DNA of 64,000 nt from Bacillus sp. REN16 (GTDB taxonomy: Bacteria; Bacillota; Bacilli; Bacillales; Bacillaceae_L), in the NCBI RefSeq assembly GCF_020731355.1, contig NZ_JAJFZK010000003.1:1-64000 (forward strand), read 5' to 3'. Under the pieces are notes generated by a model. The model saw nothing but the letters and a program-made list of their open reading frames with translations, had not been told where the DNA came from and searched no databases. This document shows positions 22,077 to 56,430 of the stretch, piece after piece. Positions within the stretch are counted from its first letter, which is position 1, and every line of letters starts with the position of its first letter. The position numbers were made by a program, and so were the translations under genes.

Positions 22077-22083
22077 GAAACAT

Positions 22084-29529: not shown

Positions 29530-29770
29530 TGGATTTGCTTTGTTGCACAGGGGATTTGCTTCAAACTTTTGATATTTGCGTCGATCGCCCAGGATTTGCG
29601 TCAAACTTTTGATTTATGCGTCGAACGGCGAAGGATTTGCATCGTATTTTTGTTTTTTGCGTCGAACGGCGAAGGATTTGCTTCATATTTTTGTTTTTTG
29701 CGTCTACCTGCGAGGATTTGCTTCATATTTTTATTTTTTGCGTCTACCTGCGAGGATTTGCTTTTTTACG
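29530..29770 (+). repeat. TTTGC array 1 (about 12 units, near 20 bp)
   Basis: The core (A/T)TTTGC(G/T/A)TC recurs roughly every 20-21 bp on the top strand, with pairs of units such as GGATTTGCTTCATATTTTTG repeated almost exactly. It lies downstream of the S8 protease gene, beyond its terminator, and upstream of the small minus-strand gene. The unit is less regular than in the other arrays. Confidence 0.85.
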
Positions 29771-29784
29771 TGGCAAACTAAAAA

Positions 29785-29814
29785 GACTAGCGATCAATTA
29801 CTTGATTGCTAGTC
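29785..29814 (-). terminator. Terminator of the S8 protease gene
   Basis: GACTAGCGATCAA and TTGATTGCTAGTC form a 13-bp stem with one wobble and a four-base loop, followed on the minus strand by TTTTTAG. Confidence 0.85.
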
Positions 29815-29822
29815 TACTAAAC

Positions 29823-32800
29823 TTAGTTTTTCTTGTTTCCAGTCGTTCCGTTATTACCTTTGCTACCGATTTTTACGTCGTTGGTTGTGACGTTACCAGC
29901 GTAGTCGACCGCAACTACTGTTACAGTTTGGTCTTTTGTGATTGGTTCAGCGAGAACATGTTCTGCTTCGCCGTTTACGTATGGTTCTTCTGTTACTGGT
30001 TCACCATCGACGTATACATCCCAATATGCGATGCCGCTTGTTTTGTCCGAAACGTCAACATCCACAGTTTTACCATCCTTACCTAATTTCGTTTTTACCT
30101 TAGGTGTTGTGACGTCAAGTTTTACTGGGAATGTGATTGTTTGTGCTTCGGCACCTTCATAGTCAAGGGTTGCTTTAGCCTGTAAGAAATATTGACCATC
30201 TTTTACAATCTTGCCATTTTTACCTGTTCCATCCCATGTCCAGTCAGATTGTAGGTAATACATTAGGCCTTGTCCACCGTCATAGTAGTTTTTGCGGACA
30301 AATTCGTCGGACGCAATTTCTTTGACAACCTTGCCATTCTTGTCTAAGACATTTAACTCGAACTCTTTTGCATTTCGAAGTAACGATAACAGGTAAGTTG
30401 CGCTGTCGTTCGCTCCATCACCATTTGGTGAAATTGCGATTAGGTTCGTATCAATTAGACCAGTTTCTTGGCTGACACCTAAGTATTTGTAGCTGCTTCC
30501 ACTTGTATGTGACATCACACCAGTTGTTCCGTAGTATGTCGCATCATCCCAGATTGGAGCGTCAAAAATTGGTGCTGCGTTCCAGTCGCCTTTAAAACCT
30601 ACATAAGGTACAACTAGGTCTGGGTTTGTATCCGTTGGATCTGTTAATTTTACAAATCCTTCTAACCAATAGCCATTTGTGAAAATGGATGCTAAATCGG
30701 CGTCCAACTCACTCACATCAACCGACACTTCAAATGTTGTTTTACCATTTGCAGGTACTTCGATCGTGCTTGTGGTTTGACCATTAACAGTTGCGATTTC
30801 TCCCAAGTCCATAGAACCATAAAGGTTTGGAGCCGATACTAAAATTCCTGCGTTCACAGGCATATCCGTTTGAGCACTTGCATTTACTTCATAAGATACT
30901 GCCTTGTCTGTTAAGTTCTCCGCTGTTAACGAGAATGTAACGACATTTTCTTTCACTTCTTTAAGTGCTACCTTTGCTTCACCAGTATTTGGGTCAGTGA
31001 CTGTGACAGGTGTTGTGAATGCTGCATGAAGCTGTATTAGACCTGAACCTTGACGACGTGGTGAAACTGGTGCTTCACCCAGAATAACTGGATTTGCAGT
31101 GTTCATCATTAATTTTTTCGCAAGTTTGGATCGATCTGCGCCTTCCAGACCAAATTCTTGGTCCACACGCTCTAATACTAATGCTGATCCACCTGAAACA
31201 TGCGGAGCCGCCATTGAAGTACCGCTCTTAATTGCATATTTATCGTCATTGATTGTTGAGTAAATTTGTCCTCCTGGAGCTGTGATTTCTGGTTTGAAAT
31301 CAAGGTTTGGTGTAATGCCCCAAGACGTAAAATCACTCATTTTTCCAGCATTCGTGTTTGGAATAGCCATTTGGTTTCCGTCGAATGACACGGTAACCGT
31401 TTTTCCATCTTTAAGCGCTGTGGCAAAGCGATCACCATCTGCCTTTAACATGAATAATTGTGGAATTGTAATCGCTGCATCTGATGCCATGCTCACTGTA
31501 CCATCTGTGTTGTTGTAGATGAATACACCTGCTGCACCAGCATTTTGTGCATTTATTGCCTTGTCAACAAAGCCGATTGAACCACGTTGAACTAATGCAT
31601 ATTTGCCTTCTAGATCTTTACCCGCAAAATCTTCAGGAGTTCCTAGGCCAGCATTCACTAGTTCATAGCTTGTCCCAGCTACTGGATCCGCCTGACTTGC
31701 GGATAAGTACATCACTTGAGATGGTTCTTCCTCGCCTACTTGTACGTTAACTGCATCCACGATCATGTTCGTGTTTTCAAATGATGCCACTTGAAGTGAA
31801 TCATAAGATACACCTGGTGACCCTACCACACCATAATCAGGATTTGATGCATATGGATATGGGAAATTTGAGCCACTTCCCAAATAGTTTGAGTTACCCG
31901 CTGAAATAGACATGATCACACCATTCTCAACGGCACGTGTTACTGCCTGTTGCTCTGGAGAGTTGGCATCTACGAATCCAGCTGTGGACCCAAGACTCAT
32001 GTTAAGAACGTCTGCCCCTAACTTGATTGCATCGTCAATTGCTTTAATATAAATATCACCATATGTTGTTGCTACATTTTCACCAAACACACGTAATGCA
32101 AGTAATTGCGCTTCTGGAGCAACACCTTGGATGCCGCCATTGTCCTCGTCACCGTTTGCTGCAACTGTTCCCGCTACGTGCATACCGTGCATATTTGTAT
32201 CAGCGTTCAGATCGACAATGTGATCGTTATTGTCCATGTAGTTCCAACCGTAAGGAACCTTTTCTGTCCAGAACTTTCCTGGAAGGGAGAATTCAGTAAT
32301 TGCGCTGTTTACGTCCGCTTCAGATAAATCTGCTGCTGAACCGTCTGTCAAGACAAGGTCTTTGTGAGAAGGGTCAATACCAGAGTCAATGATTCCAACA
32401 ATCATGCCTTCTCCTTTGAAGTCGAAGTCACGCCAAACTTTCTGCGCTTCCACTAGCTCTTTACTGTATTTCATGTCTGCTTCTTCTTCTGGAAGCTCAT
32501 ACTCAGTAGCAATGTATACATTTTTAACTTCAGGGACTTCTTTGATCTTTGCGATATCCGCAAATTTCACTTTTCCACTGAAACCATTTACGATTGCATC
32601 GAATTCTTGCTCATATTTGATGTTTACTTTTTTTCCTTTGATTTTATCTTTCGCTGCTTTTTGCTTGTTCTTTGCAGCTTTTTCGAGTTGCTTTCTTTCC
32701 CCATTTGATAGCTTATCGTATTTTTTACCTTTCTTTGTTGCTACTTCAACCGGAGCATCGCCGTCCATTTCAACGACTACACGCACCTCTTGATCAGGGT

Positions 32801-32957
32801 CAATATTTGGCAAATCTGTTGCTTCTCTATCCGTGATTTCACTCGTTGGTTTTTGTGCATCTAGCTGCTTTGTTACAAACCCGCCAGTTAACGCAAAACC
32901 GCTGCCACTAAATGCTAATAATAAAACTAGTAATAATAGCGTAACTCTCTTAGCCAT
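29823..32957 (-). CDS. Secreted S8 (subtilisin-type) serine protease, Vpr-like
   Basis: This protein of about 1044 residues has a signal peptide (MAKRVTLLLLVLLLAFSGSG) and a propeptide region to about residue 170. The catalytic triad is visible: Asp in VGIIDSGIDPSHKD (about 188), His in MHGMHVAGTVAANG (about 260) and Ser in IKSGTSMAAPHVSGG (about 577). A protease-associated (PA) domain is inserted between His and Ser (YALVQRGSIGFVDKAINAQ). After the catalytic domain come a Fn3/C5a-peptidase-like region and FlgD-like Ig modules ending in a Lys/Asn-rich tail. There is no sorting signal, so it is probably released. ATG 32957 lies six bases after GGGAGG. It is likely an exported nutrient-scavenging protease. 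Confidence 0.92.
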   Translation of the reverse strand: MAKRVTLLLLVLLLAFSGSGFALTGGFVTKQLDAQKPTSEITDREATDLPNIDPDQEVRVVVEMDGDAPVEVATKKGKKYDKLSNGERKQLEKAAKNKQKAAKDKIKGKKVNIKYEQEFDAIVNGFSGKVKFADIAKIKEVPEVKNVYIATEYELPEEEADMKYSKELVEAQKVWRDFDFKGEGMIVGIIDSGIDPSHKDLVLTDGSAADLSEADVNSAITEFSLPGKFWTEKVPYGWNYMDNNDHIVDLNADTNMHGMHVAGTVAANGDEDNGGIQGVAPEAQLLALRVFGENVATTYGDIYIKAIDDAIKLGADVLNMSLGSTAGFVDANSPEQQAVTRAVENGVIMSISAGNSNYLGSGSNFPYPYASNPDYGVVGSPGVSYDSLQVASFENTNMIVDAVNVQVGEEEPSQVMYLSASQADPVAGTSYELVNAGLGTPEDFAGKDLEGKYALVQRGSIGFVDKAINAQNAGAAGVFIYNNTDGTVSMASDAAITIPQLFMLKADGDRFATALKDGKTVTVSFDGNQMAIPNTNAGKMSDFTSWGITPNLDFKPEITAPGGQIYSTINDDKYAIKSGTSMAAPHVSGGSALVLERVDQEFGLEGADRSKLAKKLMMNTANPVILGEAPVSPRRQGSGLIQLHAAFTTPVTVTDPNTGEAKVALKEVKENVVTFSLTAENLTDKAVSYEVNASAQTDMPVNAGILVSAPNLYGSMDLGEIATVNGQTTSTIEVPANGKTTFEVSVDVSELDADLASIFTNGYWLEGFVKLTDPTDTNPDLVVPYVGFKGDWNAAPIFDAPIWDDATYYGTTGVMSHTSGSSYKYLGVSQETGLIDTNLIAISPNGDGANDSATYLLSLLRNAKEFELNVLDKNGKVVKEIASDEFVRKNYYDGGQGLMYYLQSDWTWDGTGKNGKIVKDGQYFLQAKATLDYEGAEAQTITFPVKLDVTTPKVKTKLGKDGKTVDVDVSDKTSGIAYWDVYVDGEPVTEEPYVNGEAEHVLAEPITKDQTVTVVAVDYAGNVTTNDVKIGSKGNNGTTGNKKN

Positions 32958-33123
32958 TTTCATCCTCCCTTTCACATATCAAACTATCAAATTCGGAAAA
33001 AATAGTCCCCCTTCTCGAAAATTTCGCCCCTCAAACGTTACATAATTTTCGGGATATTCACACTATACTAAATTACTATTTCTGGAACTAGCACTAAAAG
33101 TCGTAGTCAAATTGGGCTAAAAA

Positions 33124-33180
33124 CGGGGGGGACAGGGGGACGGTTCTCGTGTTCACCTAGTTTTTCCCAGTAAGGAACAG
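33124..33180 (+). repeat. GGGGACGG element beside array 2
   Basis: GGGGGACGGTTCTCG followed by GTTCACCTAGTTTTTCCC matches the dispersed family at 38.1 kb and 47.05 kb, and like those copies it lies immediately left of a TTTGC array. The left stem arm is degenerate here. Confidence 0.75.
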
Positions 33181-33194
33181 ACCACAGGGCACGT

Positions 33195-33485
33195 TATTTG
33201 CGTCAGTTCTCGCATTTTTGCGTCTACAATGGGATATTTGCTTCTAATTTCATGAATTTGCGTCTACATGCCAATATTTGCTTCTAATTCTATGGATTTG
33301 CATCTACATGCCGATATTTGCTTCTAATTCTATGGATTTGCTTCTACATCCCAATATTTGCTTCTAATTCTATGGATTTGCGTCTTCATGCCATTATTTG
33401 CTTCTAATTCTATGGATTTGCTTCTACATGCCATTATTTGCTTCTATCCCCAAATTTTTGCTTCGCTGACCGCAGATTTGTTTTG
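33195..33485 (+). repeat. TTTGC array 2 (15 units, exact 20-bp period)
   Basis: ATTTGC(G/T/A)TC recurs at exactly 20-bp steps from about 33200 to 33480. Units alternate between TTCTAATTCTATGG and TCTACATGCCAAT-type spacers, giving a 40-bp higher order. It occupies the divergent intergenic region between the S8 protease and SGNH hydrolase genes. Confidence 0.9.
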
Positions 33486-33547
33486 TTTTGATATATTGGC
33501 GTTACTTCACCCTATAAACCTTACATTTCTTTTTTAACACAAAAGAT

Positions 33548-33586
33548 GCCAGTCGCCTCACGAATTGCATTCGTTCGGTGACTGGC
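33548..33586. repeat. GCCAGTC hairpin, copy 1
   Basis: GCCAGTCGCC (33548-33557) pairs with GGTGACTGGC (33577-33586), with GAAT/ATTC inside the loop. The same hairpin recurs at 35262-35300. No minus-strand gene precedes this copy, so it is an orphan terminator-like repeat. Confidence 0.75.
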
Positions 33587-33592
33587 TAGAGA

Positions 33593-33664
33593 AACAAGGG
33601 GACGGTTCTTGTGTCCTCCTAGTATTTTCCAAGTAACCATTGGAGAGGTTCACCTGTCCCCTTA
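33593..33664 (+). repeat. GGGGACGG element beside the SGNH gene
   Basis: AAGGGGACGGTTCTTGTG begins the element, and a complementary AGGTTCACCTGTCCCCTT ends it, so the whole 70 bp could fold. It belongs to the dispersed GGGGACGG family. Confidence 0.7.
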
Positions 33665-33792
33665 AACCTATGTTTTGTCACATTTTGCATTTTTTTGTAT
33701 GAAATTAGCGAACGGTTTACATTGATGGTTCTGAAAATTAAAAATAAACTAAATAAGACTATAAATATAATACAAAAGGAGGAGGACTTTAG

Positions 33793-35160
33793 ATGTCTTT
33801 TTTTAAGAAGAAAAAACTAAGTATTTTGTTTTTACTAGTTTTATTGTTTCAAGCAGTCGTTGCTCCGATGTCATTCGCTGCAGAAGCTACTGCGGACAAG
33901 CCATCTCTAGTAGCGCTTGGTGATTCAATCACCTTTGGATGGAATCTTTATGAGGGGGAAAATCCGGATATATCCAAACCATCCATACATGCATTTCCAA
34001 ATTATATAGGAGATGGTGGTTTTGATGTCACAAACTTGAGTTTTCCTGGTTGGACCTCTGGGGACTTATTAACCAAAATAACAAGCGATCCAATGTACTT
34101 ACCTGCAATCGCTCAAGCTGATGTAATTACGCTAAATATCGGAAACAATGATTTACTTCAAGCTGCTGAAATAAATAAACTCATTTCAGAAGGTCAAGCA
34201 TTAACGCCAGAAAAAATTGAAGAAATCACAATTAAGATCAAGCTTGCATCTGGGCAATTGGCCGCAAATCTCACTCAAATTATGGGCGCCATTCGACAGG
34301 TCAATCAATCAGCACCTATTATCTTCTATAATATTTATAACCCATTTGGTGCCCACCTCGACCCAATTGTGCCTAATCTACATATGATGGGCGAGCAAAT
34401 TATTACGGGTGTTAATAAAAATGTTATCGAACCAATTGCTGCAAAAGTACCCGGAACGATTTTGGTAGATGCATACTCTGCTTATAATGGAAAACAAGCT
34501 ACATACATTAGACCATTTCCAGATGTTCATCCTACTGTAGAAGGTCAAAAGGTATTAGCATCCTTAGCGGATCAAGCATTACTATCTTTGCTTCCTCCGG
34601 AACTAGAGATCTTACTCACTCCTTCAACAACTGAATCATCCGAAGGACCTGTAACAATTAACATTGCTACAAACCACGATGAAATTTTAGAACTGAAATG
34701 GCTTCCTGGCAAATTAGCAGTAGAAGACTTTGAAACGGAAGGTAACATAATTCCTTTAGACAATCCTGCGTTTGATGTAACAGAAAATGGATTTTACACG
34801 GTTTACATTTTAAGTGGAACTGGTGAGAAAAAGGTTGTATCAATCGAAATCACAAGTATTGTTCCAAAGGTAGTGCAACCAACTGAGGAACCGCCTGTGG
34901 AACAGCCTCCTGTTGAGGAACCACCAGCAACAGAAGACCCGAAAGAAGGGCCTAAAGAAGAACAAAAAGAAGAACCCAAAAAAGAGGAACCTGTTAAGAA
35001 TGAGCAAAAGGTAACTCCCGAAAAGAAAGAAATAAAATCAGGACCAAAGCTTCCTAACACTGCAAGTCCAATCTATAACTTGCTCGCTCTAGGAATCTCA
35101 GCTCTACTAATCGGCTCAGTAGTATTATTTATGTACATGAGAAGAAATAGAACCGTATAA
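33793..35160 (+). CDS. Wall-anchored SGNH/GDSL-family hydrolase with LPNTA sorting signal
   Basis: This 455-residue surface esterase or lipase-like protein has a signal peptide (residues 1-30, ending MSFAAEA). The GDSL block VALGDSITFGW contains the nucleophile Ser45, NIGNNDLL supplies the block III Asn, and DVHPTVEGQ near residue 242 the Asp-His pair. An Ig-like region and a Pro/Glu/Lys-rich spacer (about 360-415) follow. The C-terminus is LPNTA (about 420-424), a hydrophobic segment and YMRRNRTV. LPNTA is the motif used by class D/SrtC-type sortases of Bacillus, so covalent attachment is expected. AAGGAGGAGG precedes the ATG. Substrate unknown. Confidence 0.9.
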   Translation: MSFFKKKKLSILFLLVLLFQAVVAPMSFAAEATADKPSLVALGDSITFGWNLYEGENPDISKPSIHAFPNYIGDGGFDVTNLSFPGWTSGDLLTKITSDPMYLPAIAQADVITLNIGNNDLLQAAEINKLISEGQALTPEKIEEITIKIKLASGQLAANLTQIMGAIRQVNQSAPIIFYNIYNPFGAHLDPIVPNLHMMGEQIITGVNKNVIEPIAAKVPGTILVDAYSAYNGKQATYIRPFPDVHPTVEGQKVLASLADQALLSLLPPELEILLTPSTTESSEGPVTINIATNHDEILELKWLPGKLAVEDFETEGNIIPLDNPAFDVTENGFYTVYILSGTGEKKVVSIEITSIVPKVVQPTEEPPVEQPPVEEPPATEDPKEGPKEEQKEEPKKEEPVKNEQKVTPEKKEIKSGPKLPNTASPIYNLLALGISALLIGSVVLFMYMRRNRTV

Positions 35161-35180
35161 AATACTAGGGGAAACACAGG

Positions 35181-35211
35181 GGGAAACACGGGGACGGTTC
35201 TTGTGTTTCCC
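35181..35211 (+). repeat. GGGGACGG stem-loop with perfect 9-bp arms
   Basis: GGGAAACAC (35181-35189) and GTGTTTCCC (35203-35211) pair perfectly around the loop GGGGACGGTTCTT. A second partial GGGGAAACAC lies just upstream. This is the clearest example of the family structure. Confidence 0.8.
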
Positions 35212-35254
35212 TATTATTTTCCAGCAAGAAACTCGCCGTTTTCTTTTGTGAGAC

Positions 35255-35300
35255 AAAAAACGCCAGTCACCTCACGAATTACATTCGATCGGTGACTGGC
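35255..35300 (-). terminator. Terminator of the small membrane-protein gene (GCCAGTC hairpin, copy 2)
   Basis: GCCAGTCACC and GGTGACTGGC form a perfect 10-bp stem, followed on the minus strand by GTTTTTTG. It lies 12 bases past the stop of the gene ending at 35313. Confidence 0.8.
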
Positions 35301-35312
35301 TTGTGAGTTGCT

Positions 35313-35888
35313 TTAGTCAGTCGTTTCAATCCACCAACCCGCTATATTAATTCCTTCATAATGAACTTCTTCCCCGCTCCCGTCTTCGTAAGAAAAATAG
35401 CCGGTCGCAAAGATGAAGTAATGATTCGTATAAGCAAGCGTGATTGGCACAATTTCGGATTTTGTAACCAAGTTTTCATTTTTATCAATATAAGTTGACA
35501 CTTTCACACAATCAAACCCGCTAGGGCAATAGAGTTGGTTCTTTTCACTTACCCAATTCTGAAATGAATCGGGATGGGTTGGAACTCGGATTCCACAAAA
35601 CAGGAAGGTCGCAATGACAAAGCCACCCACCCAGATTTTCACCCTGTTCTTTTTTTCAGCCAAGAATAGAAGTAAAAGATTAACCGTATAGAAAATGAGC
35701 CACAGAAATAAACCTTCTTTGAAAAAAATCCATCCGAATGAGAAAACCATGAGACTAAACGCCATGATGTCCGGAAAATACTTGAATGCGGATGGATCTA
35801 CCTCTTCTTCGTTTTCTTCCTTTTCTTTTCTTAGAAAGGCCCAAATTGCTGAAACGGATACTGCAAGAATGAAAAAGATGATTTTCAT
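35313..35888 (-). CDS. Hypothetical membrane protein
   Basis: This protein of about 191 residues has an N-terminal membrane segment, an acidic stretch (EKEENEEEVD) and two or three further hydrophobic segments up to about residue 100. An extracytoplasmic C-terminal domain of about 85 residues contains two cysteines (YCPSGFDCVKV). The start at ATG 35888 follows GAGG by six bases. It has its own terminator and no close operon partner. I do not recognise a family; the paired cysteines suggest a disulfide-stabilised outer domain. Confidence 0.65.
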   Translation of the reverse strand: MKIIFFILAVSVSAIWAFLRKEKEENEEEVDPSAFKYFPDIMAFSLMVFSFGWIFFKEGLFLWLIFYTVNLLLLFLAEKKNRVKIWVGGFVIATFLFCGIRVPTHPDSFQNWVSEKNQLYCPSGFDCVKVSTYIDKNENLVTKSEIVPITLAYTNHYFIFATGYFSYEDGSGEEVHYEGINIAGWWIETTD

Positions 35889-36211
35889 AGTGCACCTCAA
35901 CGGTTAGATTGGTAGCTCATTTATTTGCTTGATTACGATATTAGTAGAAACCATTTAGAATATTATATATCAGGAAATTGGGAATTAACATAAAATCTTC
36001 CTATATTTAACACGTATTGGTGGGTGGAGAGGAATAAGAACAAGAGGGCGGTTCCCTCCACAATCGACACAAAAAAAGCAGCAAGAAAATTGTCGCTCGA
36101 GTTACGACGCATTCCCCAAAGGGACACCTCAACTCCTCTGCATGGCGCTTGCCTTTTTCTTGATTTGGAAATAATTAGGCGAACACAAGAACCGTCCCTT
36201 TGTTTCCTCAG
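35889..36211. repeat. Intergenic region with inverted GGGACGG-family remnants
   Basis: No convincing gene is present. A fragment GAGGGCGGTTCCCTCC-like on the + strand (36040-36062) and an inverted copy reading GGGACGGTTCTTGTG on the minus strand (36177-36211) bracket about 115 bases of unrecognised sequence. This is the only inverted orientation of the family seen in the window. The pair may mark a decayed mobile repeat. Confidence 0.55.
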
Positions 36212-37051: not shown

Positions 37052-37222
37052 TCCTCCTATTTTATATGATAATATTAAGCTATCAAACATATAAAATGAA
37101 GTAAAATAGGAATTCATTATGCTCCATAACAAAACGTAATATACCATTTTAATAATCATGTCTTAATAGTTTTTATTTTTCATATAACAGAAGTATAGGG
37201 TTCAGAAATGGGAGGGCTTAGA

Positions 37223-38113: not shown

Positions 38114-38217
38114 ACAGGGGGACGGTTCTCGCGTTCACCGGGAAACGAGGGGACGGTTCTCGCGTTCACCTAGTTTTTTCCAAATAGAAGGTCTGGGAAC
38201 CAGGGGACGGATCCTGC
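38109..38217 (+). repeat. Three GGGGACGG elements in tandem, left of array 3
   Basis: The first has arms GGTGAAC (38109-38115) and GTTCACC (38133-38139) around GGGGGACGGTTCTCGC, and overlaps the last codons of the LysR gene. A second begins GGGAAACGAGGGGACGG, and a third reads GGGGACGGATCCTGCG. The stretch is homologous to 47046-47130. Confidence 0.8.
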
Positions 38218-38227
38218 GTTTCTCATG

Positions 38228-38542
38228 GATTTGCGTCTTCGTGTCGAGATTTGCGTCGGTTTCCGCGGATATGCGTTTTTCTTTACATATTTGCGTCACT
38301 TTCCAGTTATTTGCGTCGTTCCCCACATATTTGCGTCGCTTTCCTGATATTTGCGTCGTTCCTTACATATTTGCGTCACTTTCTGTTTATTTGCGTCGTT
38401 CCTCACATTTTTGCTTCATTTTCCACATATTTGCGTCGTTCTTCGCATATTTGCATTTCTTTCTAGATATTTGCGTCGTTCTACGCATATTTGCATCACT
38501 TCCCAAATATTTGCTTCGTTCCTCACATATTTGCGTCGCCCT
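38228..38542 (+). repeat. TTTGC array 3 (16 units, exact 20-bp period)
   Basis: Cores recur at exact 20-bp steps from 38234 to 38534, with spacers alternating TCACTTTCC and TCGTTCCTCACA types. The order of variant units matches array 4 at 47.1-47.4 kb. It sits between convergent genes (LysR and the LPITA protein). Confidence 0.92.
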
Positions 38543-38570
38543 GCGATAATCGCATCTTCGCACAACAAAA

Positions 38571-47045: not shown

Positions 47046-47130
47046 GGGAAACGGGGGGACGGTTCTCGCGTTTCCCTAGTTTTTTCCAAATTCAAGGTCT
47101 GAGAACCAGTGGTCGGGGTTTGCGGTTCTT
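47046..47130 (+). repeat. GGGGACGG element left of array 4
   Basis: Arms GGGAAAC (47046-47052) and GTTTCCC (47070-47076) enclose GGGGGGACGGTTCTCGC. CTAGTTTTTTCCAAAT and AGGTCTGAGAACCAG follow, as in the copy at 38150-38200. Confidence 0.82.
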
Positions 47131-47425
47131 ATGGATTTGCGTCTTCGCGTTGAGAATTACGTTATTTTTCACGGATTTGCGTCACTTTCCTGATATTTGC
47201 GTCGTTCTTCACATATTTGCATCACTTTCCCGATATTTGCATCGTTCCTCACATTTTTGCTTCATTTTCCACATATTTGCGTCGTTCTTCGCATATTTGC
47301 ATCTCTTTCTAGATATTTGCGTCGTTCTCCGCATATTTGCATCACTTCCCAAATATTTGCGTCGTTCTTCACGTTTTTGCGTCACTTTCCTGATATTTGC
47401 GTCGTTCTTCGCATATTTGCATCAA
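47130..47425 (+). repeat. TTTGC array 4 (15 slots, exact 20-bp period)
   Basis: Cores end at exact 20-bp steps from 47140 to 47420, with one degenerate slot (47160). The internal unit order closely matches array 3. It lies between the divergent giant-protein gene and the acetyltransferase-like gene. Confidence 0.92.
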
Positions 47426-47511
47426 TGGGACTAGATGGCTGTTCCTTTTGCGCAATAAAATATGATAGTATTTATTTGAACAAAATATCACAAAAAGCGA
47501 GTTGATCCCTG

Positions 47512-49113: not shown

Positions 49114-49129
49114 CTGCCTTTCAGTTTGG

Positions 49130-49160
49130 GGGAAACGCGGGGACGGTTCCTTTGTTTCCC
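49130..49160 (+). repeat. GGGGACGG stem-loop abutting the folE stop
   Basis: GGGAAAC (49130-49136) and GTTTCCC (49154-49160) enclose GCGGGGACGGTTCCTTT. It ends at the base before the folE stop codon and may act as part of the folE 3' end. Confidence 0.75.
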
Positions 49161-49793
49161 TTATCGATTTAAAAGAGTTAAGAATTCGAGACGTGTGTCT
49201 GCGCGTTGCTCGAATATGCCTCGTACGGCTGTGGTTGTGGTTTCGGAGTTTGTCTTTTTAATTCCGCGCCCGCACATACACATATGTTTCGCCTCGATGA
49301 CGACCATGATGCCTTGCGGTGCAAGGATTTCTTCGACGGCGTTTGCGATTTGGTTTGTCAGCGTTTCTTGGACCTGGAACCGTTTCGCATAGCCCTCTAC
49401 CATTCTTCCAATCTTTGAAAGTCCCGTTACCTTTTTGTCGGGGATATAGCCGACATGGGCGACACCAAAGAAAGGTGCGAAATGATGTTCACACATCGAG
49501 TGGAACTCGATATTTTTTACCAGCACGAGCTCACGATGTTCGACATCGAACACCTTTTTCAAATGGTCCTTTGGATCTTCTCGGTAGCCTTCGGTGTATT
49601 CAAGGAATGCTTTGACGACGCGCTGTGGGGTTTCGATGAGCCCATCGCGATTCGGGTCATCCCCGCAAAGTTCGATCAGATTTTTTATAGCGGCTATTGC
49701 GATATGAGCCTGTTTGATTTTTTCAGGGTTTCCTTCAAATATACGTGGGAATTTTTCAAGTATGTTTTTTTCCGCATCTAATAATGACATCAT
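49161..49793 (-). CDS. folE: GTP cyclohydrolase I
   Basis: This 210-residue enzyme converts GTP to 7,8-dihydroneopterin triphosphate, the first step of folate (and queuosine) synthesis. Diagnostic zinc and active-site segments are present: [39 protein letters not shown] and [12 protein letters not shown]. The N-terminal extension of about 25 residues relative to short Bacillus FolE is basic and helical. GGGG precedes the ATG. It is a stand-alone gene here, not next to other folate genes. Sequence and motifs are otherwise standard. Confidence 0.93.
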
Positions 49794-49939
49794 GTCAAAC
49801 CCCTTTTTTTAAAATAAACTACTTAATTACTTCTTCTTTTGCGGGGGATTTCCTTCCTACGAAATGCCTATTTGCTCGGGCTGCGGGGGTTGATTGGAAA
49901 TAGAGTAACTTTGGTTTTGGGTTTTTGAGTCTCGATTTG

Positions 49940-50530
49940 ATTATTTGCGTTGTCTCGGTTCGGATTTGCATCGAAATTCACTTATTTGCGTCATCTCGCA
50001 CAGATTTGCGTCATATTCCAATTATTTGCGTCGTCTCGCCCGGATTTGCATCTTATTTCAATTATTTGCATCTTCTCGCCCGGATTTGCATCGTCATTCA
50101 GTTATTTGCGTCGTCTCGCACAGATTTGCATCTTATTTCAATTATTTGCATCTTCTCGCCCGGATTTGCATCGTCATTCAGTTATTTGCGTCGTCTCGCA
50201 CAGATTTGCATCTTATTTCAATTATTTGCATCTTCTCGCCCGGATTTGCATCGTCATTCAGTTATTTGCGTCGTCTCGCACAGATTTGCATCTTATTTCA
50301 ATTATTTGCATCTTCTCGCCCGGATTTGCATCGTCATTCAGTTATTTGCGTCGTCTCGCCCGGATTTGCTTCGTATTCCAATTATTTGCGTCGTCTCGCC
50401 CGGATTTGCTTCGTCCCACACCTATTTGCTTCTAATTCTTCTTTTTTGCATCGTCACACAAGGATTTGCTTCTAATTCTTCTTTTTTGCATCATTAAGCA
50501 CATTTATGCGTCACCACACCATTATTAGTG
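49940..50530 (+). repeat. TTTGC array 5 (about 29 units, 80-bp higher-order repeat)
   Basis: The longest array. Cores fall at exact 20-bp steps from 49989 to 50509, after two units at slightly different spacing. Between about 50040 and 50360 four different 20-bp units recur as an almost identical 80-bp block. It lies between the folE start and the thiolase 3' end, both minus strand. Confidence 0.93.
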
Positions 50531-50569
50531 TCACCCCACAAATTTTACGCCTACTCGCCCATATTAAAA

Positions 50570-50594
50570 GGCCTTCAGATCTTTTCTGAAGGCC
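50570..50594 (-). terminator. Terminator of the thiolase gene
   Basis: GGCCTTCAG and CTGAAGGCC form a perfect 9-bp stem with a seven-base loop, followed on the minus strand by TTTTAATAT. Confidence 0.85.
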
Positions 50595-50603
50595 CTGACT
50601 ATC

Positions 50604-51791
50604 TTATAAGCTTGTATTTTCGATGATCATGGCGATTCCTTGGCCGCCACCGATGCAGAGGCTGACCGCTGCGTATTTTTTATCGCGGCGTCTTAGTTCA
50701 TACGCTGCTGACAATAGGATTCTCGCACCGCTCGCTCCGACTGGGTGGCCAAGTGCAACCGCTCCACCGTTGACATTCGTTTTCTCGCGGTCAAGTCCGA
50801 GTTCTTTTTCAACTGCAAGGTATTGCGCGGCGAATGCTTCGTTTACCTCCACTACGTCCATGTCGGCTAAGCTAAGTCCGGCTCGTTCGAGCGCCTTTTT
50901 AATCGCTGGCACAGGACCGATTCCCATGATCGTTGGGTCAACTCCCGCTACTCCCCACGATACTACCTTCGCAAGTGGCTTCAGTCCATTTTCACGGACG
51001 GCTTTTCCACCTGCAACAATGACTGAAGCTGCTCCGTCATTGATTCCGGATGCGTTTGCGGCCGTGACGGTTCCGTCAGCAATGAATGACGGACGCAATT
51101 TACTTATCGACTCCAAGTTCGCGTTCGGTTTGATATGCTCATCTTTTTCTACTAAAATACTACCTTTTCTCGTTTTCACCTCGACGGCGACGATCTCTTC
51201 CGCAAAGGTTCCATTTTCCGAAGCCCTAGCCGCCCTCTGGTTCGATTCAATTGCGAATTTGTCCTGATCCTCCCGTGTGATCGAATAGTTTTTTGCTAGT
51301 TTTTCAGCGGTCATACCCATCCCTTTTCCCGTATATTGGTCGGTAAGGGTTGTCAACAACATATCTTCAAATTGAAGATTGCCCATTTTTGAACCGCCAA
51401 ATCGCTGGCTAAAATTCGCATATGGGGATTGGGACATGTTCTCGGTTCCACCGGCAAGCACCAGTTCCGCATCCCCTACTAAAATATGCTGAGCCGCGGA
51501 AACGACAGATTGCAGACCAGACCCGCATAAGCGGTTGACCATAAATGCAGGTACTTCCTGAGGAACGCCGCTATGTAGTGCGATATGTCGCGCCAGGTAG
51601 GACGCATTTTTTTCTGTATGAATGACGTTCCCATAAATAACGTGATCAATTTGAGCCGGGTCGACCTTGGAGCGCTTCATTGCTTCAACGGCGGTAGCGC
51701 GCCCTAACTCGGTTGCACCCGTTCCTGAAAACGATCCTCCAAAACTAGTAAATGCTGTACGAGCCCCATCGACAATAAAAATTGGTTCCAT
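50604..51791 (-). CDS. Acetyl-CoA C-acetyltransferase (thiolase)
   Basis: This enzyme of about 395 residues catalyses condensation of two acetyl-CoA to acetoacetyl-CoA, or the reverse thiolysis. The nucleophile Cys is in NRLCGSGLQSVVSAAQHILV near residue 88. VEVNEAFAAQYLAVEKELGL, GGAVALGHPVGASGARI (catalytic His) and SLCIGGGQGIAMIIE (second Cys) are classic. I use ATG 51791, eight bases after AAGGAGG. It is monocistronic with its own terminator. It could be biosynthetic or part of fatty-acid or amino-acid breakdown; no pathway partner is adjacent. Confidence 0.93.
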   Translation of the reverse strand: MEPIFIVDGARTAFTSFGGSFSGTGATELGRATAVEAMKRSKVDPAQIDHVIYGNVIHTEKNASYLARHIALHSGVPQEVPAFMVNRLCGSGLQSVVSAAQHILVGDAELVLAGGTENMSQSPYANFSQRFGGSKMGNLQFEDMLLTTLTDQYTGKGMGMTAEKLAKNYSITREDQDKFAIESNQRAARASENGTFAEEIVAVEVKTRKGSILVEKDEHIKPNANLESISKLRPSFIADGTVTAANASGINDGAASVIVAGGKAVRENGLKPLAKVVSWGVAGVDPTIMGIGPVPAIKKALERAGLSLADMDVVEVNEAFAAQYLAVEKELGLDREKTNVNGGAVALGHPVGASGARILLSAAYELRRRDKKYAAVSLCIGGGQGIAMIIENTSL

Positions 51792-51873
51792 TGACAATAC
51801 CTCCTTTTTTAACTAGTTTACCATGTTGGTCACGTTGTGTAATGAATATTCTGACTAATATATTAATGGAAAG

Positions 51874-51895
51874 AGGTGTACATTTCTGTACACCT
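51874..51895. promoter_or_regulatory. Perfect palindrome upstream of the thiolase gene
   Basis: AGGTGTACA and TGTACACCT are perfect inverted arms around TTTC, about 80 bases upstream of the thiolase start. There is no following T-run, so an operator is more likely than a terminator. The cognate regulator is unknown. Confidence 0.5.
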
Positions 51896-52190
51896 AGATA
51901 GACTCATTCAGTTGTTTATGTTGAACTTGGCTGCGTATAGTGGCAAAAAACGAGGCTGATGGGGGTTTAAAGTATGTAGAACGTTTACATTTTTATTCGA
52001 TCTATATGTATGGTCTTAGCTGCGTTTCAAACAAATAAGACCGGTGTGATTCGTAGTGTGTTTTTCTATCTTTAGAATACCTGTATGTACAGCAAAGTTC
52101 TGTTAATTTCGTCACACTTTTTCATTTTTTTACAATTTTTTTAAAGTTTTTTTTATTTATCGACAATCATACTTGAAGTTTCCCCATAGC

Positions 52191-52235
52191 AAACGTTACG
52201 TACGGACCCTCCAAGATCCCACGTACGTAAAGTTT
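52191..52235. promoter_or_regulatory. 14-bp inverted repeat upstream of the sigma-factor gene
   Basis: AAACGTTACGTACG (52191-52204) and CGTACGTAAAGTTT (52222-52235) pair at 13 of 14 positions around a 17-base loop, about 90 bases before the sigma-factor start. It may be an operator or a leader hairpin. The rest of 51792-52323 holds no evident gene, only AT-rich sequence. Confidence 0.6.
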
Positions 52236-52323
52236 ACGCTTTGGACTGCCCTTCCCCTAACCGGTTAAATTTGTGTTACCGGCGGAATACAAAAGGAACG
52301 CGTTCTTTAAAAGGACCATTTGC

Positions 52324-52806
52324 GTGGAATTTGAGGAACTAGCAGAACAGTATAAACCATTAATTTTTCAGGTGATTAAAAGATTACGATTGTATGGAGA
52401 CAGGGAAACATTTTACCAGATTGGCTTGATTGGACTGTGGGAGGCATCGAACCGATTTGATGCCGGGAAAGGAGTTGAGTTTTCAACATTTGCTTTTACA
52501 ACGATTCGCGGAAAGCTTCTCGATCATTTAAAAAAGGAAGCTCGCTACCAGGACCACTGCCAACCCACGGGAGAGCAGGTTTTTATGAAGCTTGCGGATT
52601 GCTCCGATGATTTATCGGTTGATTTAATCGAGGAGTACGGGAAAAATTTGACGGAAAATCAGGTGAAGTGGGTTCAAGGACGAATTATTGAGGATAAAAG
52701 CTATAAGGAAATCGCGGGCGAGCATGGTGTTACCGTGGAATCGGTGAAGTCGTGGGGGCGACAAGCTGTTAAGAAATTGCGCCAAATTATTATAGTAGAA
52801 GGATAA
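52324..52806 (+). CDS. Orphan sigma-70 family RNA polymerase sigma factor
   Basis: This 160-residue sigma factor has region 2 (EQYKPLIFQVIKRLRLYG, QIGLIGLWEASNRFDAGKG, FSTFAFTTIRGKLLDHLKKE) and region 4 (LTENQVKWVQGRIIEDKSYK, HGVTVESVKSWGRQAVKKLR). The FSTFAF motif resembles SigH/SigF-like group 3 factors more than typical ECF factors, although length is ECF-like. The start is GTG 52324, eight bases after AAAGGA. No anti-sigma factor of a known family is adjacent; a one-pass membrane protein is encoded about 155 bases downstream. A strong inverted repeat lies upstream and a paired-palindrome element just downstream. Regulon unknown. Confidence 0.83.
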   Translation: MEFEELAEQYKPLIFQVIKRLRLYGDRETFYQIGLIGLWEASNRFDAGKGVEFSTFAFTTIRGKLLDHLKKEARYQDHCQPTGEQVFMKLADCSDDLSVDLIEEYGKNLTENQVKWVQGRIIEDKSYKEIAGEHGVTVESVKSWGRQAVKKLRQIIIVEG

Positions 52807-52817
52807 TTTTTTTCAAC

Positions 52818-52880
52818 CAAACGTTTGTTTGAAATTTAGGGATTTGGAACCGTCTGCCTCAGGCTTTAAACAAGCGTTTG
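52818..52880. repeat. Paired CAAACGTTTG palindrome element, copy B
   Basis: CAAACGTTTGTTTGAAATTT at 52818 and CAAGCGTTTGTTTGAGGCTT at 52871 are 53 bp apart, mirroring the pair at 48120/48174. The pair lies between the sigma-factor gene and the next + strand gene. Confidence 0.72.
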
Positions 52881-52962
52881 TTTGAGGCTTGGGTTCATTT
52901 TTCGAGGATAATGAATGATTAGGATTGCGGCAATGGGCAACAATGTATGGGGAGGTGATGAC

Positions 52963-53493
52963 ATGATTAAGAGGTTGCTACTTCTCGCAATCATTGTGGA
53001 GCTTGGTGTGTTTTGGTATGTGCATCAGGAAAAAGAGCCCGTCTCCGTTCAGGTGGTGAAATTGCCACAGCGCGAGCTCTTTTTGTACAAGAAAAAGGCC
53101 CCTGCTGATAAGCTAGAGCCTGCGGTTGAAACAGCGGCATCGACTGACCCTTTGACGGTCATAAAAGATAAATATAGGGTTGAATTTGAAGTTTTAGAAA
53201 AGGAAACAAAGAAGAAAGCAAAGGATCTGCTGGCACGGGCCAAGGCGGATTTTGTTGAGGAATCGGCCGATGGCATCGCCGCTTTGCAGGTCATGAGCAC
53301 CTACTATAACGAGTTCAAGACGCTTGAAAAAGAAACCGACGAAGCCTTCGAGCAAATCTACTTGCAGCTTGAAACCGAACTAGAGGCAGGCGGCCATTCA
53401 AAGGAAGAAGCCGTTGTCTTCCGGGAACAGTACGAGGAAAAGAAGAAGAAAATGCTGAAAAAGGCGATGGATGTGCAGGGGAGTTATGAGTGA
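52963..53493 (+). CDS. Membrane-anchored coiled-coil protein of unknown function
   Basis: This 176-residue protein begins MIKRLLLLAIIVELGVFWYV, a single N-terminal membrane anchor. An exported or cytoplasmic Lys/Glu-rich helical region follows (VLEKETKKKAKDLLARAK, then EEAVVFREQYEEKKKKMLKK), predicted to form coiled coil. ATG 52963 follows GGAGGTGA by four bases. It lies downstream of the orphan sigma factor in the same direction, separated by the paired palindromes. It could be a partner of that sigma factor, but no anti-sigma domain is recognisable. Confidence 0.7.
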   Translation: MIKRLLLLAIIVELGVFWYVHQEKEPVSVQVVKLPQRELFLYKKKAPADKLEPAVETAASTDPLTVIKDKYRVEFEVLEKETKKKAKDLLARAKADFVEESADGIAALQVMSTYYNEFKTLEKETDEAFEQIYLQLETELEAGGHSKEEAVVFREQYEEKKKKMLKKAMDVQGSYE

Positions 53494-53504
53494 GGACGTG
53501 GAAT

Positions 53505-53775
53505 TTAGTAGGATTGTGCGATATGGCCTGGGGATTGCGCTATAACACCGGAGAATTGCACTTTATGGCCAAGGAATTGCGCGATAGCATTTGGGATTGT
53601 GCGTTATGGCCTAGAGATTGCGCTATAACGCCGAAGAATTGTGCGTTATGGCCAAGGAATTGCGCGATAAGCCCATGGAATTGCGCGATAGCTCCGGGGA
53701 ATTGCGCGATAAGCCCATGGAATTGCGCGATAGCTCCGGGGAATTGCGCGATAAGAATAGATAATTGCGCTTTAC
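53505..53775 (+). repeat. 21-bp TTGCGCGATA array (array 7)
   Basis: About 13 units with core (G/A)ATTG(C/T)GC(G/T)ATA recur every 21 bp; exact starts include 53658, 53679, 53700, 53721 and 53742. Two units alternate (AAGCCCATGG and GCTCCGGGG spacers), giving a 42-bp higher order. The period being a multiple of three creates phantom heptapeptide ORFs in several frames. Confidence 0.88.
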
Positions 53776-53842
53776 TCAAAAATCGTGGAAGTTGGTGACT
53801 AACCAGCTGTTAATTTCGTTCGGGAATGGGCTATAATAAAAT

Positions 53843-53974
53843 AGATCAGGTGCGCGAACACCTGATCTACCCAATTACATGCCGCAAAGTGAGCGGCTAA
53901 CCAATCTTTAAAGGATTACAAATTAAAGTAATCACCCCTATTGCCTTGGTTGGGCGGGGCGGTTACTTCTTTTG
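53843..53974 (+). ncRNA. Antitoxin-like antisense RNA, copy 1 (toxin side decayed)
   Basis: A TATAAT at 53832-53837 precedes a structured segment. It contains hairpin AGATCAGGTG/CACCTGATCT (53843-53868), hairpin GCCGC/GCGGC (53881-53897), then a GTAATCACC...GGCGGTTAC stem followed by TTCTTTTG. The same order of elements occurs 235 bp downstream opposite a holin-like toxin remnant. On the opposite strand only a faint remnant of the toxin C-terminus is visible here. Confidence 0.55.
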
Positions 53975-54042
53975 TTTGCAATCAAACCTTTGCCAAATGC
54001 AGATATTTCACTAGTTTTTCATCAAAATTGGCTTCGCAAAAG

Positions 54043-54071
54043 TTGAAATAAACGGTTATAATGCTTATAAT
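54043..54071 (+). promoter_or_regulatory. Promoter of antisense RNA copy 2
   Basis: TTGAAA (54043-54048) and TATAAT (54066-54071) are separated by 17 bases, with the expected start a few bases before the GATCAGGTG hairpin. Confidence 0.65.
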
Positions 54072-54077
54072 AAAGAT

Positions 54078-54226
54078 ATAATAAAAAAGATCAGGTGCGG
54101 CTAACACCTGATCAATACAATTACACGCCGCAAAGTGAGCGGCTTGCCCATGAACTTAGTAGTGATACCAAAAAGAAGTAACTACCTGGATCCCGGACGA
54201 GGATAGGCGGTTACCTCTTTTTGTTT
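54078..54226 (+). ncRNA. Type I antitoxin-like antisense RNA, copy 2
   Basis: The segment has the hairpin GATCAGGTG/CACCTGATC, the hairpin GCCGC/GCGGC and a terminator stem GTAACTACC/GGCGGTTAC followed by CTCTTTTTG. Its 3' end is complementary to the 3' end of the holin-like toxin reading frame on the other strand. This convergent overlap is typical of TxpA/RatA- and BsrG/SR4-type systems of Bacillus. Confidence 0.62.
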
Positions 54227-54314
54227 GCAACGACCAACATGACCACAATTGTTATGAGCCCTAGCAAACTAAATTAGATTGCAGTGCCACAGACATTGCC
54301 TCGTATGTCGTCAT
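54211..54314 (-). pseudogene. Frameshifted holin-like type I toxin
   Basis: On the minus strand GGGAGGTGG precedes ATG 54314, which opens MTTYEAMSVALQS, the N-terminus of the Bacillus putative holin-like toxin family. The frame then breaks, and the continuation FSLLGLITIVVMLVVANKKR followed by TAA is found in another frame. A single missing base near 54273-54278 explains the break. The intact product would be about 34 residues with one membrane helix. The ribosome binding site and antisense RNA remain. Confidence 0.72.
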
Positions 54315-54500
54315 CTGACCACCTCCCTTCTTACAGGAAGTGGCTAACCGCCCACCCGCTTTATGTAACTGTACCCCTATTTTAACATTTCAGATAATAG
54401 ATTACTAGTGAAACGGGAACATTTGTTCCTATTATTTTACACAAACTAGAACACTGGTTGTGGTAGAATATAGAAAAAACTAGTAAAGGAGCACTCCCCT

Positions 54501-55784
54501 ATGAATTTTTTCGAAAAATTAATTTCGGATTATGATTATTCCTTAGATAAAAATGGTGTGAGTGGAGAGCGTTTGGCGTCTCGACTTGCGGCACTCTCAG
54601 AAATCGGGCTAACCACTGATAATGGCTCACACCGGATTGGATTTTCCCGCGAAGAAAAGGCCGCGAAGGATCTGGTGAAAAAGTGGATGGCGGAAGCTGG
54701 CCTCGTTGTGACGGAGGATGGTGCCGGTAATGTATTCGGTCGTCTAGATGGCAAAAATCAAACCCTACCCGCACTCTTATCCGGCTCACATGTTGATAGT
54801 GTGCCGAATGGCGGGCATTTTGACGGTCCGCTCGGTGTGCTCGCGGCACTTGAAGTTGCTGAGGCATGGAAACAAACTGGCTTTGTGCCGGAACGTCCAT
54901 TTGAAGTCGTTATTTTTTCCGATGAAGAAGGCGCGCGCTTTAACGGTGGTTTCAGTGGAAGTTCATCGATGATTGGCGAGGCGACACGAGAAGAACTCCT
55001 GCCGAAAGTGGATATCCATGGCGACCCTTTTTCAAAGGTTTTAGAGGACATTGGGCTATCGGTTGACGAATTTTTCAATTCAAAAAGGGATCTCAGCAAG
55101 CTTGAGGCGTTTGTGGAAATACATATTGAGCAAGGAAAAAGATTGGAGCGTGCCGGGGTTCCAGTCGGAATTGTAACTGGAATTGCGGGACCTTGTTGGT
55201 TGAAAATGACGTTTTCGGGTCACGCTGGACATGCGGGCAACACGCCAATGGACGACCGTCGCGATGCACTTGTTGCAGCGAGCCAATTCATCTACGAGGT
55301 GCAGTCCCTTCCCGCCCAGGTAAGCTCATCTGCGGTCGCAACCGTTGGAAAGGTTGATGTCCTGCCAAACGGTATAAATGTAATCCCGGGCGAGGTCCGC
55401 CTCACAGTTGACATTCGTGATATTAAAAAAGAAACCCGTGATCAACTCGTCGATTTGGTAATTGAAAAAGCAAAGTCGGTTTCAGCTTCACATGGAACCG
55501 GGCTTCAATATGAAGAAACTTTACGAGAACCACCCGTTCCAATTAGCGAGGAAATGCAGCAAAAACTCGAAAAATCCGTCGTGGCACAAGGGATTGAACC
55601 CGCGTATTTGCCAAGCGGTGCTGGTCACGACTCAATGATAGTCGGTCATGTGTTGCCGGTAGCGATGATTTTCGTTCAAAGTAAGGATGGCATCAGCCAT
55701 AACCCGGCCGAATGGTCCTCTTTAAGCGACTGCGTGCAATCTGTGCATGTGCTAAAGGACTTTGTGGAGAGGTATGACGGATAA
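54501..55784 (+). CDS. M20-family amidohydrolase (N-carbamoyl-amino acid hydrolase / allantoate amidohydrolase type)
   Basis: This 427-residue dinuclear-metal hydrolase has LLSGSHVDSVPNGGHFDGPLG with His and Asp metal ligands, the catalytic Glu pair in IFSDEEGARFNGGFSGSSSM, EIHIEQGKRLE, and the lid-domain GHAGHAGNTPMDDRRDAL. The GAGHDSMI segment and the C-terminal GISHNPAEWSS supply the last ligands. This combination marks the hydantoinase/carbamoylase subgroup (AmaB, AllC, HyuC) that releases amino acids or ureidoglycine. AAAGGAGC precedes the ATG. No other hydantoin, pyrimidine or purine catabolism gene is adjacent, although a purine salvage operon lies 2 kb downstream. Substrate is undecided. 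Confidence 0.88.
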   Translation: MNFFEKLISDYDYSLDKNGVSGERLASRLAALSEIGLTTDNGSHRIGFSREEKAAKDLVKKWMAEAGLVVTEDGAGNVFGRLDGKNQTLPALLSGSHVDSVPNGGHFDGPLGVLAALEVAEAWKQTGFVPERPFEVVIFSDEEGARFNGGFSGSSSMIGEATREELLPKVDIHGDPFSKVLEDIGLSVDEFFNSKRDLSKLEAFVEIHIEQGKRLERAGVPVGIVTGIAGPCWLKMTFSGHAGHAGNTPMDDRRDALVAASQFIYEVQSLPAQVSSSAVATVGKVDVLPNGINVIPGEVRLTVDIRDIKKETRDQLVDLVIEKAKSVSASHGTGLQYEETLREPPVPISEEMQQKLEKSVVAQGIEPAYLPSGAGHDSMIVGHVLPVAMIFVQSKDGISHNPAEWSSLSDCVQSVHVLKDFVERYDG

Positions 55785-55859
55785 TACGGTTCGAAAAATG
55801 GCGTTCTCTCATGAGGGCGCCTTTTTTCGTATAGACATGTGGGTGTGGCCAAAGCAGAA

Positions 55860-56430
55860 TTGCGTTTTAAATTTAGGATTTGCGTCAAATCTGGGATATT
55901 TGCGTCTTCACCACGTTATTTGCGTCGTTTCTGAGATATTTGCTTCGTTTACGAGATATTTGCTTCTTTTCCGAGATATTTGCTTCTTTTCACAGATATA
56001 TGCGTCGTTTCCGAGATATTTGCTTCGTTTCACAGATATATGCGTCGTTTCCGAGATATTTGCTTCGTTTCACAGATATATGCGTCGTTTCCGAGATATT
56101 TGCTTCGTTTACCAGATATTTGCTTCGTTTCACCGGTATATGCGTCGTTTCCGAGATATTTGCGTCTTCACCACGATATTTGCGTCGTTTCCGAGATATT
56201 TGCTTCGTTTCACAGATATATGCGTCGTCTTCGGCATATTGTTTCATATCTGAGATATTTGCTTCGTTCCACCGATTTTTGCGTCTATTTTTCAGGATTT
56301 GCGTCTTTTACGGGATATTTGTGTCTACTCACAGGTTTTTGCGTCCTCCACCAAGTTTTGCGTTACTCACAGTTTTTTTGAGTCTACTCCAAAGTTTTTG
56401 CGTCTCCCACCAGTTTTTTCCGTCTACCCC
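55860..56430 (+). repeat. TTTGC array 6 (about 28 units)
   Basis: Cores fall at exact 20-bp steps from 55861 to 56221, then continue more irregularly to about 56420. Units alternate GAGATATTTGCTTCGTTTCA and CAGATATATGCGTCGTTTCC types. It lies between two + strand genes, so arrays occur in every gene-orientation context but always with the core on the top strand. Confidence 0.92.

Follow-up and report, generated by a model that had tools for sequence, protein, structure and literature searches.

Most known arrays of phased direct repeats are single control regions on plasmids. Among other short bacterial repeats, intergenic minisatellites (VNTRs) are tandem, vary in unit number and carry higher-order repeats, CRISPR arrays combine longer repeats with unique spacers of ~30 bp, DNA uptake words occur singly or as inverted pairs and not as phased arrays, and the consensus of LytTR response regulators contains GTT. 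In the ParR/parC system, as far as the cited account describes it, ParR binds parC with one dimer per iteron, and the DNA wraps onto a helix of protein (PMC5016525). Sites of LytTR response regulators are described as direct repeats of 9–10 bp with 11–12 bp between them, at a phase of ~21 bp (PMC2766830), and the DNA uptake sequence of Neisseriaceae as a short genomic word with species-specific dialects (PMC3630211).

Here we characterize arrays in a 64,000-nucleotide stretch of the Bacillus sp. REN16 genome (the window), in which a 9-bp core is followed by a spacer of 11 bp, at times 12 bp. Tandem direct repeats in helical phase (here 20 bp, at times 21) are common to these arrays and, in the accounts cited, to iterons and type II plasmid centromeres. 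Unlike iterons and parC, the arrays occupy many chromosomal loci and their spacers are unrelated between loci. Iterons and plasmid centromeres have the gene of their binding protein beside the repeats; for the window arrays, a Pfam scan of 20 surrounding proteins, 5 of them without a match, recognised no Rep or Par family. The LytTR spacing rule (9-bp repeats, 12 bp between; PMC2766830) agrees with a 9-bp core and 11- or 12-bp spacers, whereas LytTR sites, as that source presents them, consist of one repeat pair and the arrays here of 3–57 units. Among the published architectures considered, parC iterons and LytTR sites come closest, and neither agrees with the arrays in arrangement and setting. 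The array cores ATTTGCGTC and GACGCAAAT also lack GTT, unlike the LytTR consensus. Species dialects are shared with the DNA uptake sequence as described for Neisseriaceae. Tandem units, variable unit number and higher-order repeats are shared with minisatellites, from which the arrays differ by a core conserved between arrays and species, by near-random spacers and by steps of 20–21 bp for several cores. They likewise depart from CRISPR arrays, the core being 9 bp long and the 11-bp spacers often repeated within an array. A literature search, run also with the letters TTTGCGTC, judging relevance by title and leaving most subscription journals outside its scope, found no report on these arrays.

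Phased arrays in the window

All six arrays described in the initial annotation were recovered by tandem-repeat search and reading in 20-base frames (Table 1), and its account of five with long 20-bp runs was borne out, with 14 to 27 consecutive slots of which few are degenerate. Tandem Repeats Finder returned periods of 20, 40 and 80 for them, and the exact word ATTTGCGTC matches 37 times in the window, on the plus strand only, compared with 0.62 matches expected from dinucleotide shuffles. The repeat had been described as a 20-bp TTTGC(G/A/T)TC unit; core position 7 is indeed G, A or T, but ATATGC variants occur inside arrays (five of the 19 slots of array 6, whose first slot is degenerate) and so do 21-base steps. 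Similarly, the observation that the core always lies on the top strand holds within the window but not elsewhere on the same contig (C23), where arrays at 125391-125690 and 246385-246444 are on the minus strand. Ordinary chromosomal genes border the gaps that contain the window arrays; divergent, convergent and co-directional gaps all occur, and no shared kind of flanking gene was seen.

Table 1. Window arrays, copied segments, places matched in related genomes, and core families. Coordinates without a contig name are window positions; G010, Bacillus sp. HNG; G011, B. timonensis MM10403188; G012, B. timonensis AF060A6.
Feature	Location	Strand	Description
Array 1	29554-29763	+	TTTGCDTC core; shorter than the other five; 20- and 21-base steps
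Array 2	33196-33475	+	14 core units at 20 bp and one degenerate slot; 40-bp higher-order repeat; divergent gap
Array 3	38229-38548	+	16 slots at 20 bp, two degenerate; convergent gap
Array 4	47135-47434	+	15 slots at 20 bp, one degenerate; divergent gap
Array 5	49964-50523	+	27 core slots in 49984-50523, at least one more unit upstream; 80-bp higher-order repeat
Array 5, setting	49.9 kb		Co-directional gap; flanked by GTP cyclohydrolase I and thiolase genes
Array 6	55858-56430	+	19 slots at 20 bp (55858-56237), then shifted-frame units to ~56430
Seventh array	53511-53783	+	21-bp step; core ATTGCGC (B type); overlooked in the initial annotation
Copied segment	38140-38562	+	GGGGACGGTTC element and array 3; copy of 47046-47413 (local alignment)
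Copied segment	47046-47413	+	GGGGACGGTTC element and most of array 4; copy of 38140-38562 (local alignment)
Matching place	C12:300 kb		With G011
Matching place	C45:237 kb		With G011 and G012
Matching place	55.9 kb (array 6)		With MM10403188 (L012, L109)
Matching place	C23:83-85 kb		With G011
Matching place	C23:104 kb		With G012, one flank only
Matching place	C3:76 kb		With G010, G011 and G012
Matching place	C23:213 kb		With G010, G011 and G012
B core	C23		ATTGCGC; 20-21 bp
C core	C23		ACTG[T/C]CACT; 20 bp
D core	C23		ATCGGAC; 21 bp
ATATGC variant of A core	C23		
CTATCGA arrays	Two stretches of Bacillus sp. HNG (G010)		20 bp

The two copied segments are direct copies that flank a block of ~8.5 kb. 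This block encodes a 2471-aa protein with GLUG and calcineurin-like phosphoesterase domains. A mobile-element or phage origin of the arrays was considered and set aside, as no such protein was recognised among the 20 window proteins, 5 of them without a Pfam match.

At the RNA level, ten 150-base strands from five arrays folded with no structure beyond that of shuffled sequences (z -0.24 to 2.46), a result in keeping with an element that acts as DNA, and the same folding revealed no palindrome in the units, in contrast to REP/BIME repeats. Promoter and terminator scans of two stretches gave counts near those of shuffles, and the arrays are not placed by them. In an Rfam search of the window, two riboswitches reached the gathering score, neither within an array: a c-di-GMP-I riboswitch (29276-29361, minus strand) that precedes a histidine kinase gene, and a purine riboswitch (57528-57629, plus strand) that precedes a phosphoribosyltransferase/permease pair.

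Other repeats share this part of the genome. REP-like GGGGACGGT/GGGACAGGT elements match 36 times across 304 kb of C23, in some cases near arrays, with window sites at 33135, 33597, 33651, 35189, 38117, 38148 and 47054 and others elsewhere on C23. A 139-bp direct repeat (window 21948-22214, 93% matches) contains GGGGACGGTTC. Arrays of a 52-bp unit lie at C23:153700-154448, 204575-205346, 216875-217273 and 231938-233579; ATGAAG(G/A)AC and GTCTTCAT motifs are found in three of the four, in one of them as a close hairpin. The 52-bp array at C23:204.6 kb has a diverged 52-bp counterpart in B. timonensis MM10403188 and is absent from that place in AF060A6.

A constant core on a two-turn step

The window is the first part of contig C23 (381 kb) of a draft genome of 4.64 Mb in 73 contigs. 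Using TTTGC[GAT]TC as the A core, we searched a 464-kb pool made of C23:1-304000 and eight 20-kb stretches, the latter chosen for their hits to a sequence model. Three phased A cores at 20 bp matched 163 times in this pool and the reversed core not once; 200 letter-shuffled cores, from which draws of the core itself were dropped, gave a mean of 0.22 matches and a maximum of 24, only 2 of them being non-zero.

Constraint on individual positions was estimated from 47 arrays with 746 units in four species, a set in which orthologues and the separate pieces of a split locus are also counted. Core positions 2-6, 8 and 9 are 0.92-1.0 identical between arrays, values that are inflated, as in the aligned pairs and in genome G008 described below, by the choice of units by their core. 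Between-array identity falls to 0.54 at core position 7, 0.26-0.37 at spacer positions 10-19 and 0.44 at position 20. This difference between core and spacer sets the arrays apart from minisatellites whose whole unit is alike with no privileged core. Phase alone, without a strict core, placed 85 of the 746 slots, and most of the core was kept in the 40 of these that were inspected. Spacer sequence is not entirely free and leans towards pyrimidines on the core strand, with C at 0.286 and G at 0.184.

Nine aligned array pairs, eight orthologous and one paralogous, gave the same picture, with mismatches at 37/841 core, 489/1054 spacer and 68/119 position-7 columns; the count took only columns in which both rows had a core with no more than one mismatch, a choice that favours the core. 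For the paralogous pair (38.2/47.1 kb) the mismatches were 1/84 in the core and 13/123 in the spacer.

The step is tightly kept. Consecutive cores at most 70 bp apart (n=628) are separated by 20 bp in 467 cases, 21 bp in 46, 19 bp in 4 and 22 bp in 2; the remaining distances are 40-42 bp (94), 59-62 bp (10) and others (5). For G008, 123 of 128 steps of 19-21 bases are 20, 4 are 19 and 1 is 21. Since gaps of 1-2 bases are common in diverged alignments (43 of 82 internal gaps), indels cannot serve as an argument for a spacing constraint. Above the single unit, two unit types alternate in many arrays, others have a period of three units or one unit, and 200-bp blocks occur at C3:76.3-77.4 kb.

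Core words differ between families and species

The first 304 kb of C23 hold 20 array rows of at least three units, some of them overlapping, including further arrays of other cores at a like phase (Table 1). At C3:76.2-76.3 kb a B array passes into an A array in 20-bp register, and the same is seen in B. timonensis AF060A6. On another contig, a D-type array (C12:299310-299413, minus strand) lies close to an A-type array on the opposite strand (C12:299662-300242, plus strand).

In this genome, which is near B. timonensis MM10403188, arrays were found on at least eight contigs (150 candidates scored). Within the genus, the strict three-unit pattern occurs in 4/9 genomes, and an 80-column sequence model detects arrays in at least 4/9 (150 candidates scored per genome). 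Across the order, the strict pattern occurs in 3/299 genomes, all of this genus, in a sample without MM10403188. The relaxed pattern WWTGCRY, three times at 20 bp, extends to 8/9 genus genomes (not G009) and 1/8 other genomes of the family, while its reversed control gave one match (G005) in all 17. The A word is carried by this genome, Bacillus sp. HNG, MM10403188 and AF060A6, and B arrays by this genome and AF060A6. Among the matches listed, G005, G006 and G007 have mainly the B word, and G008 has W[A/T]TGC[A/G]CG at more than 20 places. The core word, as read from these genomes, differs by species (TTTGC[G/A/T]TC, AATTGCGY, W[A/T]TGC[A/G]CG), and such dialects suggest a putative trans-acting, sequence-specific factor.

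In a collection of genome contigs, the three-unit pattern matched 55 stretches, of which 12 belong to B. timonensis MM10403188, 8 to AF060A6 and 4 to Bacillus sp. HNG. Inspection of 25 of the other 31 (first four units each) found mostly 3-6 units with near-identical spacers; spacers differ in L036 (Rossellomorea aquimaris, 4 units) and in L041 and L049 (3 units each), and L011 (Cytobacillus horneckiae) has 39-41-bp steps. Searches of 120 order genomes with the D core and with the C core each matched a single genome, namely this one, in samples that contained no other member of the genus; C arrays also occur in Bacillus sp. HNG and MM10403188, and a D array in MM10403188. Three scans of viral contigs matched 23, 3 and 0 contigs. 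The five inspected of the 23 contain three units apiece, in some cases with spacers that differ; the three D-core matches all have 3-7 units with near-identical spacers. Two contigs of this genome start inside arrays (C3:2-632 and C25:18-177); assemblies may break at such places, so that array counts may be too low.

Arrays are gained and lost at conserved places

Twenty stretches around arrays of Bacillus sp. HNG, MM10403188 and AF060A6 were compared with the 464-kb pool, in which C23 was read through to 304 kb and the eight other stretches had been pre-chosen for model hits. A long counterpart was found for 12, and all 12 have their array at or adjoining the place of an array in this genome. 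Conserved loci with diverged spacers, for which the initial annotation had proposed a search, therefore exist: the places match while the spacers have diverged to the extent given above.

Up to four species carry arrays at one and the same place between genes, at times with a different core. The place at C23:213 kb is filled by B units in this genome, by A units in HNG, MM10403188 and AF060A6, and in G008 by that genome's own dialect, oriented the other way; in G005, G006, G007 and G009 it lacks an array and contains just a short GGGACAGG element. The place at C3:76 kb shows two B-like units in G005 and in G006, another kind of repeat in G009 and no repeat in G008, and G007 matches only in part; the unit number at this place and its counterparts ranges from 4 to 57, the variable copy number typical of a minisatellite. 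At window 53.5 kb, the gap that holds a B array here contains a TTTGC-type array in MM10403188 (L109:7131-7622), and at the window 49.9-kb place there is no array in MM10403188. Arrays are both gained and lost between species. Judged from these alignments, the places seem older than the letters that fill them, although a different core at one place could also reflect two independent gains.

Orientation relative to replication

Chromosome arms were inferred from GC skew, the genome being a draft. GC skew is negative in 19/19 bins of C23:1-304000 and minus-strand coding exceeds plus-strand coding in 17/19, and on this basis we take this stretch as one arm. As first scored, 31/35 A-type (TTTGC) rows were opposite the leading strand. 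Two L109 rows of MM10403188 were re-scored, 15/15 neighbouring stretches of that contig being negative in GC skew, and one row was added (L229, C25:38-157, same strand, weak skew), which gives 33/36; these rows include orthologues and hence are not independent. This genome alone has 14/16. Among the other types, the opposite and same strands hold 2 and 6 ATATGC rows, 4 and 2 B rows, and 4 and 0 C rows; D rows are 4 and 1 in one scoring and 5 and 2 in another. A skew is seen as well in single A cores that lie outside arrays (58:24, 46:16 and 24:16; 52:21 in coding DNA), at ratios for which Markov models of intergenic DNA predict 1.06-1.34 to 1. The arrays of G008 show no polarity (16 opposite, 13 same).

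The strand constancy of the window arrays had been taken to indicate chromosome-arm polarity. The 33/36 A rows sustain this in part, but both strands occur within one arm (C23:125 kb and 246 kb against the window arrays), the very case that the initial annotation had named as speaking against it, and G008 is unpolar. Polarity is real in the A type and not a rule of the system; it is a feature of the T-rich type, perhaps partly compositional.

Discussion

Core constancy, tight spacing, conserved places, dialects and copy-number change are features of the arrays themselves. Because the step spans two helical turns, the word is constant and the dialects shift at many loci, a trans-acting reader of the word is needed; a binding protein or an amplification enzyme would both do. 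We favour, with a probability of a little under one half (about 0.48), the reading that the arrays are iteron-like sites for a putative sequence-specific protein that grow and shrink by slippage or recombination. Such a factor would read an AWWTGCRY-type word head to tail, one per two helical turns and on one DNA face, and could form a local nucleoprotein filament at certain intergenic places, as iterons and plasmid centromere repeats do. Units would be added or lost by slippage or unequal recombination, leaving higher-order repeats of 1, 2, 3 or more units, and spacers would drift while core and spacing were kept. If the preference of the factor shifted in a lineage, the core would shift at many unrelated loci, producing dialects. 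From these features we infer protein binding and cooperativity, and a role that most likely concerns local chromosome structure or the regulation of flanking genes.

The specificity of the core relative to shuffled cores and the conserved places argue for this tandem-site reading. Several core families in one genome count against it, as they call for several factors or a loose one, and so do arrays missing in sister species (C23:213 kb, window 49.9 kb) and the lack of a common flanking gene. Selection for a protein that binds one DNA face had been proposed from the fixed core and free spacers. Fixed core, two-turn phase and dialects do suggest selection for putative protein binding.

The main rival, which we regard as a real possibility, is a minisatellite without host function, in which a copying process (a nuclease, an ssDNA transposase or a recombination step) needs the word and keeps it. 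Arrays would then expand locally, and a core change would spread through the changed preference of the enzyme. Higher-order repeats of 1, 2 and 3 units, the 200-bp blocks, the range of 4 to 57 units at one place, the two contigs starting inside arrays, the replication-strand bias of the TTTGC type and the absence of arrays from some sister species are all in line with such a process. On the other hand, no enzyme or mobile gene of this kind was recognised among the 20 proteins near the window arrays (5 without Pfam match), and the units contain no palindrome. Moreover, between-array spacers near background indicate that copying between loci seems rare, with one clear case (38.1/47.0 kb), and yet the core remains constant. 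That pair of mutual copies is also what speaks for the arrays being products of one recent duplication limited to this region. The possibility that they arose in a single recent local event, raised in the initial annotation, is refuted for practical purposes: other contigs carry arrays too, and three other species have them, with diverged spacers, at orthologous places.

A polar chromosome-arm mark, read by a segregation, translocation or replication-arm factor as originally proposed, would account for the orientation of the TTTGC-type rows irrespective of divergent, convergent or co-directional gaps. We consider it improbable: an arm-consistent orientation of the KOPS/SRS kind is approached in the TTTGC type (33:3) but not in G008 (16:13), same-arm exceptions exist, the ATATGC rows tend the other way, single cores are skewed even in coding DNA, and many rows are orthologues. 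An RNA-level element, by which antisense transcripts would carry repeated, pyrimidine-rich stretches free of structure that load Rho or bind an RNA-binding protein, would agree with the intergenic position of the arrays, the ten unstructured strands, the excess of C over G in spacers and the mostly leading-strand-opposed TTTGC type. It appears quite improbable given that a spacing locked at 20-21 bases fits helical DNA better, that G008 is unpolar and that divergent gaps hold arrays.

In the arrays described here, phased repeats are spread over a chromosome, and the same intergenic places are kept while the spacers have become near random and the words have split into species dialects. They might form a bacterial analogue of satellite DNA, with genus-wide arrays whose word is locked to two helical turns and coevolves with a putative polymerising chromosomal protein, an idea to which we give rather less than even odds. 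If no protein reads them, the arrays would be an unusual satellite-like bacterial DNA whose word is preserved by an amplification mechanism. If a protein does, Bacillaceae would have a so far unrecognised factor that organises the chromosome or acts in regulation, and comparing the dialects would be a way to work out its recognition code.
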